DNA of 64,000 nucleotides from Acidobacteriota bacterium (GTDB taxonomy: Bacteria; Acidobacteriota; Holophagae; Thermotomaculales; Thermotomaculaceae): assembly GCA_013152385.1 (NCBI GenBank), contig JAADGL010000010.1, positions 1-64,000 on the forward strand. Reading direction: 5' to 3'. Below the pieces are notes generated by a model. The model had not been told where the DNA came from and ran no database searches. It saw only the letters and a list, made by a program, of their open reading frames with translations. Positions within the stretch are counted from its first letter, which is position 1. Every line of letters starts with the position of its first letter. A program made the translations under genes and the position numbers. Shown here piece after piece: positions 61,220 through 64,000 of the stretch.

Positions 61220-61705
61220 TTACTTTTTCAGAACCTGCTGAACTTCTTTGATGAAACTTTCAGGTGTTTTGTTTTTCCCGGCACTTAAACGTCCGATCTC
61301 TGTTTTGCCGTCCGGTCTCAGAAATATATATGTGGGAACGCCGCGGACTCTGAATTCCCGGCCGAGTTGCTGATTCCGTGACTGAAAATTTTCCGGAACC
61401 TTGGTTTTGTCTCTGGGAAAGTCAATTGCCACCAGCACCAGATGGTCTTTGGCCCATTTGCAAAATGTATCTCCGGAAAAAACGGTTTTATCCATAAGTT
61501 TGCACCAGTAACACCAGTCTGATCCGGTAAACATGACCATGATGGGGAGCTTGTGCTCTTTTGCGTAGGTTTTTGCCGCTGAAAGATCCTGGGTCCATTT
61601 ACCCGGTTCTACTCCCTTTTTCAGTGCGTCCAGCGCATAGCCGGAACTGCTGATGCCAAGTGTTATGACCAATGCCAGTGCGATAACTTTCAACTGTTTT
61701 TTCAT
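61220..61705 (-). CDS. Secreted thioredoxin-like protein
   Basis: The 161-residue protein has a signal peptide (about residues 1-24, ending near GYA). The thioredoxin fold carries the redox motif CYWC (Cys65, Cys68) after FTGSDW and the cis-Pro loop GVPTYIFLRPDG (about 119-130). The SDWCxWCK pattern is typical of thioredoxin_7/DsbD-gamma-like periplasmic reductases. It likely reduces or isomerises disulfides, perhaps for the multihaem cytochromes encoded next to it, since haem attachment needs reduced CXXCH; this is inference. It is a single gene sharing a terminator with the kinase. Confidence 0.9.
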   Translation of the reverse strand: MKKQLKVIALALVITLGISSSGYALDALKKGVEPGKWTQDLSAAKTYAKEHKLPIMVMFTGSDWCYWCKLMDKTVFSGDTFCKWAKDHLVLVAIDFPRDKTKVPENFQSRNQQLGREFRVRGVPTYIFLRPDGKTEIGRLSAGKNKTPESFIKEVQQVLKK

Positions 61706-61948
61706 CCTTAATTTCTCCTTCGTGATTTCATTTGATTCGCGGAGCCTTCTGCCGCTCAGAGTGTGAAACGAAATAGCCGGCCTTTTGTTGCTGTAAAAAA
61801 TGCCGGAGCTACCGATTGAAACTACAACAGGCTTCCCTGAATTTCAAGATAATTCGTCAGCCGACGGGGGATTCATCAGGCGGACAAGCGGAATTTTAAC
61901 ATTCCTTTTATGTAAAGTCAACGGATTGTTTTAAAAAAATGAACTAAT

Positions 61949-61962
61949 TTGATCTGTGTCAA
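61949..61962. promoter_or_regulatory. FNR/CRP-family box upstream of the octahaem cytochrome
   Basis: TTGAT-CTGT-GTCAA matches the FNR consensus TTGAT-N4-ATCAA at nine of ten defined positions. A TAAAGT -10-like hexamer begins 23 bases after the box (61985-61990), the spacing expected for a class II activated promoter. The rest of the 358-base gap has no gene. Confidence 0.55.
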
Positions 61963-62063
61963 GTTGTTTTGTGAAATTTTATCATAAAGTATTGACGGAT
62001 GACTACAGGCTTTCATTTTTTTATTTACCAATGCGGATTATCCGTATGAAGGAGGGGAATTTT

Positions 62064-63395
62064 ATGAAACGAATGATCTGGTCTATTATTCTGGTTTGTA
62101 CCGCCGGGTATCTGGTGTTCGGGGCAACTCCGTCACCGAAAACAGTTGCGGGAAAATGTATGACCTGCCACAAAGACAAGTCGCCGGGTATATATAAACA
62201 GTGGTTTGCATCTGCCCACGCGCGGCACGATGTAACCTGCCTGGATTGTCATCAGGCAAAGAAAGGGGATGCAGATGCTTACATGCATTATGACGCGCGG
62301 ATTGCCACACTGGTAACGCCCATGGATTGCGGCCGTTGCCATGAAAAGGAAATGAAGGAAGTGGACGGGTCCCACCATGCCACCGCCGGATTGATCCTTG
62401 ATTCCAATGATGCATACCTGGCCCATGTGGCGGGGGGAAATCCTGTTGCCATTCAGGGATGCGAAAATTGCCATGGTTCCAGGATTAAGATTGATCCGAA
62501 ATCACCCAATCGTTTGTCACGGATGACTTGGCCCAACAGCGGGATCGGCCGTTTGAATCCGGACGGCTCCAAAGGTTCCTGTACACCCTGCCATACCCGC
62601 CACGCGTTTTCAAAGGCGCAGGCCCGTCAACCGGAGGCTTGTTCCAAATGCCACCTGGGTCCGGACCATCCGCAGAAAGAAATCTACGAGGAATCCAAAC
62701 ATGGGAATGCATATTACACGCACAAAGAAGACATGAATCTGAAAGCGGACCGTTGGGTGGTGGGACAGGATTATTTTGAAGCTCCCACCTGCGCCTCCTG
62801 CCACATGTCCGCCACCCGAAAACAAAAGGTGACCCACGATGTCGGTGCCCGGATTTCCTGGAACCTGAGGGCGCCCATTTCCAGGAAACAGAAAAACTGG
62901 CAACAGAAGCGCAAAAATATGAAGGATGTTTGCACAAACTGTCACGGGCAATCGTTCGCAGATGGCCATTATTACCAGTTGGATGCGACAGTTAAACTTT
63001 ATAATGAGAAGTTTGCGATTCCGGCCGCCCGAATTATGAAACTGATCAGAAACAAACATCTGCTGAAAAACCCGGCGGCTTTTTCCAACAAAATTGAGTG
63101 GACTTACTGGGAACTCTGGCACCATGAGGGGAGACGCGCCCGCCACGGTGCAGCCATGTTCGGCCCGGATTACACCTGGTGGCATGGATTTTATGAAATT
63201 GCTCAGCATTTTTATTTCAAATTTATTCCGGAAGCCCGGGAATTCAATGATCCGGAAGTCAATGCTGCCATTGACAAACTGTTGAAGAACGATCCGATGC
63301 ACCAATGGCTCCAGAAGCCGACAAATGATTTGAAAGCGGCGATCAAGAATGGAGAAATGCAGAAAATCTACCGGAAGATGTTTTCCGCCCAGTAA
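62064..63395 (+). CDS. Octahaem cytochrome c of the hydroxylamine oxidoreductase family
   Basis: The 443-residue protein has a signal peptide (about 1-20) and eight CXXCH motifs, starting at Cys 32, 59, 89, 133, 173, 193, 243 and 290. The stretch from KHGNAYYTHKED through APTCASCHMSA, THDVG, SWNLRAP, VCTNCH, LYNEKFA, ELWHHEGRRARHG and DYTWWHGFYE follows the C-terminal half of HAO-family enzymes closely. Members oxidise hydroxylamine or hydrazine or, in some anaerobes, reduce nitrite or hydroxylamine; direction depends on a tyrosine cross-link to the catalytic haem that I cannot place with certainty. Start 62064 has GGAGGGG upstream. A NapC-type gene follows 17 bases later and an FNR-like box precedes it. 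Confidence 0.92.
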   Translation: MKRMIWSIILVCTAGYLVFGATPSPKTVAGKCMTCHKDKSPGIYKQWFASAHARHDVTCLDCHQAKKGDADAYMHYDARIATLVTPMDCGRCHEKEMKEVDGSHHATAGLILDSNDAYLAHVAGGNPVAIQGCENCHGSRIKIDPKSPNRLSRMTWPNSGIGRLNPDGSKGSCTPCHTRHAFSKAQARQPEACSKCHLGPDHPQKEIYEESKHGNAYYTHKEDMNLKADRWVVGQDYFEAPTCASCHMSATRKQKVTHDVGARISWNLRAPISRKQKNWQQKRKNMKDVCTNCHGQSFADGHYYQLDATVKLYNEKFAIPAARIMKLIRNKHLLKNPAAFSNKIEWTYWELWHHEGRRARHGAAMFGPDYTWWHGFYEIAQHFYFKFIPEAREFNDPEVNAAIDKLLKNDPMHQWLQKPTNDLKAAIKNGEMQKIYRKMFSAQ

Positions 63396-63412
63396 TGGGA
63401 AGCGATTGAATC

Positions 63413-64000
63413 ATGTTTCGGAAGTATCGAAATTTTCTCCGGGGAATCTCAGTCAACCGGATCGGACAGGTGGGAGTTATATTGACAACTACCGCCTTTG
63501 TCGGTTTTCTGTTCTTTGAATTTCTCCGGTTGATCGGGGTGTTGGATAATGCCTACATCGGCTTGATTACCTACCTGTTTTTCCCTGCAATGTTTGTTGC
63601 GGGCCTTGTTCTGATGCCGCTTGCATGGTACCGGTACCGGAAACGGCAGGGAAAATCTACCCGGGAACTTCTGAATGAACGTTTTGACTCCGTGGATATT
63701 CGGGAGGGATTTTTCGGTTCCCGGGTTTTTCTGGTCATTCTCCTTCTAACGATGGTGAATGTGCTGTTCATTGCCGGTGTCGGTTTTCGGACTATGAAAT
63801 TTATGGACGAACCCAGATTCTGTGGAACCGCGTGCCATTCGGTGATGGGGCCGGAGTGGACGGCTTACCGGCAATCTCCCCACTCCAGGGTTAAATGTGT
63901 GGAATGCCATGTGGGACAAGGTGTGGACGCGGTGGTCAGTGCGAAGCTCAATGGTTTGCGCCAGATGGCACTGGCTATGCTCAGTAACTACCAGCGGCCC
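63413..64000 (+). CDS. NapC/NirT-type membrane cytochrome c (5' part, truncated by window end)
   Basis: The frame is open from ATG 63413 to the window edge (196 codons). It has hydrophobic segments at about 18-40, 47-70 and 106-126. The first haem site is the variant FCGTACH (CX3CH, about residue 138) and the second is CVECH (about 163), with SPHSRVKC between them. Unlike classical NrfH, there are extra N-terminal helices. Proteins of this kind pass electrons from menaquinol to periplasmic multihaem cytochromes. It starts 17 bases after the octahaem cytochrome, which is its likely partner. The remaining haem sites lie beyond the window. Confidence 0.88.
   Translation, partial: MFRKYRNFLRGISVNRIGQVGVILTTTAFVGFLFFEFLRLIGVLDNAYIGLITYLFFPAMFVAGLVLMPLAWYRYRKRQGKSTRELLNERFDSVDIREGFFGSRVFLVILLLTMVNVLFIAGVGFRTMKFMDEPRFCGTACHSVMGPEWTAYRQSPHSRVKCVECHVGQGVDAVVSAKLNGLRQMALAMLSNYQRP

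Follow-up and report, generated by a model that had tools for sequence, protein, structure and literature searches.

At the end of the window (the whole analysed stretch of 64,000 nucleotides, which is bases 1-64000 of the 140,990-base contig C66 in a genome of 2.57 Mb and 99% completeness), a putative NO/nitrite-type operator precedes the genes for an octahaem cytochrome c, P0001, and an ImcH-like quinol oxidase. Their sequences indicate that the encoded system is probably an NO- or nitrite-induced, menaquinol-linked periplasmic reductase of nitrite, NO or hydroxylamine, with ammonium as the probable product. Genes for HAO-like octahaem proteins often carry the annotation hydroxylamine oxidoreductase and are taken as markers of nitrification or anammox. 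P0001 belongs to a widespread clade, from mostly uncultured phyla, that lacks the oxidative residue, is paired with ImcH and would sit in a regulon of NO/nitrite type; in this little-studied bacterium, the reductase most likely acts on nitrite or its toxic products. The locus comprises the following features.

61220..61705, minus strand: DsbH-like thioredoxin-fold protein with a signal peptide, divergent neighbour
61949..61962, plus strand: operator TTGATctgtGTCAA (also written TTGATCTGTGTCAA), TTGAY-N4-RTCAA with DNR/HcpR1-type half sites
61983..61988, plus strand: candidate -10 element CATAAA
62050..62055, plus strand: Shine-Dalgarno sequence AGGAGG, read from the sequence
ATG 62064 to stop 63395, plus strand: octahaem cytochrome c (P0001), 443 aa, reductive-type OCC of the HAO superfamily
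63413..64000 in the window (196 codons), whole on C66 at 63413-64924, plus strand: ImcH-like NapC/NirT-family quinol oxidase, 503 aa
C66 64937-66160: porin, third gene, 407 aa, starting 12 bases after the partner gene

An octahaem cytochrome of the HAO superfamily

The original prediction of an HAO-family protein with eight haem motifs is borne out. A motif scan of the translation finds eight CXXCH motifs in the order of HAO, none of them replaced by the CXXCK active-site motif that marks ONR and NrfA, behind a Sec signal peptide-like segment (residues 1 to about 21). P0001 matches Pfam family PF13447 (E 1.3e-26) and, in the PDB, IhOCC of Ignicoccus hospitalis (4qo5, E 5.7e-44) and Nitrosomonas europaea HAO (E 7e-22); a profile search of the PDB with the octahaem family returns IhOCC at 1.9e-75. 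On these matches, P0001 is an octahaem cytochrome of the HAO superfamily. At 443 residues it is indeed shorter than classical HAO, as had been remarked, but this length is ordinary for its own clade, because most homologues at least 60% identical to it have 440-470 residues. A GTG-started reading of the frame with 479 residues was rejected, as it overlaps the operator and buries the hydrophobic signal sequence internally.

Active site, model and tree

The cross-linking tyrosine, whose presence the original prediction had left to an alignment with N. europaea HAO, is absent. In that enzyme Tyr467 is the Y that follows WT in GGWTYTEGW, and it aligns with W372 of P0001 (PDYTWWHGFYE); the nearby Tyr370 pairs with the aromatic residue preceding the threonine, not with Tyr467. 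Among 39 homologues, the Tyr467-equivalent column holds tryptophan (28), glutamine (6) or histidine (5), and tyrosine in none. The distal Asp-His pair of haem 4, in contrast to the tyrosine column, is kept in 39/39 (Asp201-His202, corresponding to D267-H268 of the N. europaea enzyme in SEQRES numbering), and Arg263, Arg269 and Asp369 are likewise invariant across the 39. In a survey from 2025, the cross-linking tyrosine is the feature that tells oxidative enzymes from reductive ones (PMC12758564). Without this residue P0001 falls outside the oxidative HAOs and within the reductive octahaem group, and hydroxylamine oxidation would be an unexpected direction; by its active-site sequence, P0001 is a reductive-type octahaem cytochrome.

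The fold and the phylogeny agree on the closest solved relative. An AlphaFold model of P0001, built on the alignment of 39 homologues (pLDDT 84.8), retrieves IhOCC at the top of a Foldseek search, followed by the reducing Kuenenia HAO-like protein 6h5l and then HAO; ONR (octahaem nitrite reductase) and NrfA are non-significant in the same search. The TM-score to IhOCC is low (0.38), perhaps owing to the missing haems of the model, and only the Foldseek ranking is used here. In a midpoint-rooted tree of 95 octahaem rows, with long branches flagged and eHao not among the rows, P0001 lies within a 37-row clade (support 100) nested in an 85-row group containing IhOCC. This IhOCC half is split at support 100 from an HAO half comprising N. 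europaea HAO, Ruegeria HAO, Kuenenia HAOr and the host's second octahaem protein. The tree thus puts P0001 on the IhOCC side, the deep placement being unsure because of the long branches. A nine-CXXCH HAO-like type from two same-class genomes (L023 and L025) forms a long branch of its own.

The ImcH-like partner and the porin

The partner gene starts with the ATG at 63413, so that 17 bases (63396-63412) separate it from the octahaem stop codon, exactly as had been noted from the window. Read whole on the contig, the partner has three hydrophobic N-terminal segments, a CGTACH motif (CX3CH) and five CXXCH, giving six haem motifs. ImcH homologues are described as having three N-terminal transmembrane segments, an atypical CX3CH and 5 to 9 CXXCH (PMC6295460); the likeness of the partner was judged against this published description, with its transmembrane segments assessed by eye. 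The partner had been called NapC-type: its assignment to the NapC/NirT family and its predicted link to quinone stand, whereas a small tetrahaem NapC or NrfH (about 190 residues, one transmembrane helix and four haems) does not describe a 503-residue protein. Another ImcH-like protein, encoded on contig C63 of the same genome, shares 34% identity with it.

The third gene product resembles Alginate_exp/Opr porins; a model built with six homologues is poor (pLDDT 50) and shows about 17 strands.

The pairing recurs widely. A homologue scan covered 84,980 species genomes, and among the best 80 matches that were used, the octahaem gene is immediately followed by an ImcH-like gene on at least 24 named contigs. 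These contigs belong to Acidobacteriota, Zixibacteria, Calditrichota, Ignavibacteriota, Bacteroidota, Neomarinimicrobiota, Myxococcota and others, and the 22 that the tree includes cluster there. One family member (G004) carries a tetrahaem NapC in the place of ImcH, followed by the same porin (58% identical).

The divergent DsbH-like neighbour recurs in two congeners and is not found near homologues in other phyla; it was discarded as a candidate maturation factor, since it adjoins congeneric loci only. A block at 61900-61922 of the window (CATTCCTTTTATGTAAAGTCAA) is kept in all four congeners, and its minus strand offers the DsbH-like gene what looks like a good promoter of sigma-70 type (TTGACT-17-TAAAAT).

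The operator and its conservation

The operator lies 101 bases before the octahaem start codon and, as originally reported, matches TTGAT-N4-ATCAA at nine of ten positions. Within the window, such 9/10 matches number 2 against 3.25 expected (non-significant) and TTGAYN4RTCAA occurs once against 0.31 expected, which is unremarkable; comparative tests were used for this reason. Four congeneric species keep the operator, as TTGATctgtGTCAA, TTGACctatATCAA, TTGAGccagATCAA (one mismatch) and TTGACctgcATCAA. The candidate -10 element begins 20 bases after it at a spacing that is constant in the congeners, where the element reads TATAAC, CATAAA or TATAAA, and this spacing would roughly fit the layout of class II activation by Crp/Fnr-type proteins.

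Beyond the genus, TTGAY-N4-RTCAA precedes 12 of 76 octahaem homologues, compared with a mean of 0.155 in shuffles (maximum 1) and with 7 of 507 other genes on the same contigs (Fisher P 2.5e-7), most of these seven being members of the same kind of operon; in 64/76 homologues the exact site is absent from the stretch scanned. This conservation and enrichment uphold the idea of a regulated module. The sequence also closely resembles wyTTGACnnnnGTCAArw, the consensus for HcpR1 in Geobacter and related bacteria (PMC1274295).

A putative NO-responsive regulon and its regulator

Across the genome, TTGAY-N4-RTCAA occurs at 13 sites and the reversed pattern at 2. Several are intragenic; those in promoter position precede the octahaem-imcH operon, the gene for NorB (the only one found in the genome, with a site 137 bases upstream) and three further genes.

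G000:C20:36002-37276 (L127:8003-9277, L031): HAO-like protein of 424 aa with eight CXXCH, the second octahaem cytochrome; preceded at 78 bases by a TTGATTTATATCAA site, conserved in relatives
G000:C60:87122-88282 (L152): ODP-family flavodiiron-like protein; identical 14-mer TTGATCTGTGTCAA 79 bases upstream
G000:C41:9884-11176 (L161): membrane protein of 430 aa, weakly similar to NapH/MauN; preceded at 65 bases by a TTGATTCAAATCAA site

The second octahaem protein, which the tree places in its HAO half, likewise lacks a tyrosine where the cross-linking residue aligns. On a Bacteroidetes contig (L084), a protein similar to this second type adjoins the first.

The original prediction took the operator to be FNR-like. 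A profile search of the genome returns two Crp-type helix-turn-helix proteins, on C18 and C20, and neither has the N-terminal cysteine set of Fnr. In the C18 protein, the helix resembles that of CRP (SSRETVTR). The C20 protein, which is separated from the second octahaem gene by two genes, has no cysteine at all; its helix reads TPETFSR, compared with QPETFSR in DNR, and its nearest solved structure is DNR (3dkw). With Fnr cysteines in neither protein and the C20 protein nearest to DNR, an oxygen-sensing Fnr is unlikely. The C20 protein would be the one that binds the TTGAY-N4-RTCAA sites, and it would sense NO. The FNR label is accordingly hard to keep for an operator whose copies precede norB, two octahaem genes and the ODP gene, and an NO/nitrite operator of DNR/HcpR1 type is the better reading.

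Nitrogen-oxide genes around homologues and in the host

Genes of nitrogen-oxide metabolism recur beside the homologues. On a Holophagae contig (L044), norB lies 97 bases upstream of the octahaem gene on the same strand. On a Zixibacteria contig (L041), genes for a Crp/Fnr regulator, a ferredoxin, a NapH-like protein and hcp precede the octahaem-imcH pair, and subsets of this set occur on L043, L048, L052 and L072. More distant relatives have napA, napD and nrfD (L132) or napA (L090, L097, L101 and L110) nearby. The original prediction left the substrate as nitrite, hydroxylamine or another small nitrogen or sulfur oxyanion; the nitrogen-oxide part stands, and the sulfur part is disfavoured by these nap, norB and hcp neighbourhoods and by the regulon. 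A Desulfosarcina ovata plasmid typed as mobilizable (NZ_AP021877.1, L117) carries NapC, octahaem cytochrome, NorR and NO reductase genes.

In the host genome we find no convincing molybdopterin nitrate reductase (Nap or Nar), no NirS and no hcp; its one multicopper oxidase, considered as a NirK candidate, was rejected as CopA-like. Nitrite must therefore come from outside. No convincing true NrfA was found in the genome either; the matches to PF02335 belong to different multihaem frames, including a short ORF at the end of contig C35 (37.6 bits). NorB is the sole protein of the haem-copper oxidase family found there. Multihaem clusters on contigs C2, C15, C44 and C63 (L134-L136 and L138), with up to 17 CXXCH and the second ImcH-like gene, suggest a capacity for extracellular electron transfer in the host.

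Proposed mechanism and alternatives

The ImcH-like protein would oxidize menaquinol at the inner membrane and pass the electrons to the octahaem protein, in which haem 4, at the position of the HAO P460 haem and free of a tyrosine cross-link, would bind and reduce nitrite, NO and/or hydroxylamine, most likely to ammonium. The porin of the third gene would admit the anion to the periplasm. The TTGAY-N4-RTCAA site would mediate activation by a DNR/HcpR-like regulator responding to NO, and hence to nitrite, within a small nitrosative or nitrite regulon made up of the octahaem operon, the NorB-type NO reductase, the second octahaem cytochrome and the ODP flavodiiron-like protein. The physiological role may be growth on nitrite or detoxification.

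We consider it possible, though unlikely, that P0001 is instead, like Kuenenia HAOr, an NO-forming nitrite reductase that hands NO to the co-regulated NorB, so that nitrite would be converted via NO to N2O in a cell without NirS or NirK. If true, this would constitute an unrecognised quinol-driven module of partial denitrification, spread over many phyla, with ImcH as the electron source. Somewhat less probable is a module of anaerobic respiration, on nitrite or another acceptor, switched on at low oxygen by a true Fnr. The operator does match the Fnr consensus at nine of ten positions, sites for Fnr and for DNR have overlapping sequences, and the organism looks anaerobic, as no oxygen-reducing haem-copper oxidase was found in its genome; on the other hand, neither Crp-type protein has the Fnr cysteines, the cysteine-free one with the ETFSR helix is closest to DNR, and the genes linked by the site are NO/nitrite genes.

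The remaining readings assign P0001 to other chemistry. A path from ImcH through the octahaem protein outward to Fe(III) would recall the Fe(III) reducers from which ImcH is known (PMC6295460), and it draws on the plentiful multihaem cytochromes of the genome and on an outer-membrane barrel gene that comes after the ImcH-like gene. Against this path stand the conserved Asp-His active-site pair in an HAO-like fold, the contexts with norB, hcp and nap together with the NO-type operator, and the presence of a separate ImcH paralogue at C63. The barrel, moreover, resembles Alginate_exp/Opr porins, and at 407 residues it is smaller than the conduits of MtrB type; we regard extracellular transfer by this operon as very unlikely. 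Reduction of a sulfur oxyanion (sulfite or tetrathionate), as by MccA or OTR, appears more improbable still: OTR-type octahaem proteins do reduce tetrathionate as well as nitrite (PMC6449678), yet a relation between P0001 and OTR is undetectable in PDB searches and the recurrent neighbours are N-oxide genes. Least credible of all is an oxidative hydroxylamine oxidoreductase, for which the HAO superfamily, the eight haems and the Asp-His pair might speak, but which is contradicted by the missing tyrosine, by a partner of quinol-oxidase type and by the lack of haoB or ammonia-oxidation genes among the neighbours listed at this locus and at the homologue loci.

Relation to known systems

As a probable reductase of nitrite, NO or hydroxylamine, P0001 has its best solved relative, in both sequence and fold, in the archaeal IhOCC, which shares its half of the tree and is also without tyrosine at the cross-link position (DWTTFKRG). 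The two differ at the distal pair, which is Asp-Val in IhOCC (CHLDPDV) and Asp-His in P0001 (CHLGPDH). In the 2016 work of Parey, IhOCC reportedly reduces nitrite and hydroxylamine; we know of no ImcH neighbour for it. Kuenenia HAOr (6h5l, kustc0457/0458) is, like P0001, a reductive octahaem protein without the cross-linking tyrosine, but it belongs to the HAO half of the tree; it converts nitrite to NO (PMC12758564).

The epsilonproteobacterial eHao, compared here by description, is likewise a reductive HAO-type octahaem protein encoded with a quinol dehydrogenase of the NapC/NirT family, and nitrite or hydroxylamine reduction has been proposed for it in the literature. Unlike eHao, the P0001 locus has an ImcH-like partner, a porin and a DNR/HcpR-type operator. 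ImcH of Geobacter and Acidobacteria shares with the partner its three hydrophobic N-terminal segments, the CX3CH followed by CXXCH motifs and a length of about 500 residues; in contrast to known ImcH, the partner is encoded next to what is putatively a terminal reductase, within an N-oxide regulon and not among genes of extracellular electron transfer. HcpR/DNR regulons of Geobacter and relatives have an operator of TTGAC-N4-GTCAA type before hcp, ferredoxin and nrfHA (PMC1274295). The operator type is common to both, whereas the targets here are octahaem cytochromes, norB and ODP, with no hcp.

Reductive HAO-like enzymes with NapC-type partners (eHao) and HcpR regulons with nrfHA are thus already known; as far as the literature searched showed, the pairing with ImcH, its spread and the surrounding NO-type regulon are new. 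Discussion of ImcH has so far concerned its part in extracellular electron transfer, as the quinol oxidase. The system predicted here would be a way of ammonifying nitrite or handling NO that has been overlooked, and with it the service of ImcH to soluble acceptors could be tested directly.

The native orange octahaem protein BOGUAY_0691 of a Guaymas Beggiatoaceae, an HAO-type protein encoded near napAB, reduces nitrite and also oxidizes hydroxylamine and hydrazine in vitro, the recombinant form being weak (PMC6449678); in view of these oxidations, family membership does not by itself fix the direction of the reaction. A Thiomargarita protein (locus L098) that is 49% identical to P0001 may be the orthologue of BOGUAY_0691. 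Its partners differ from those of P0001, with a 684-residue nine-haem protein encoded two genes downstream.
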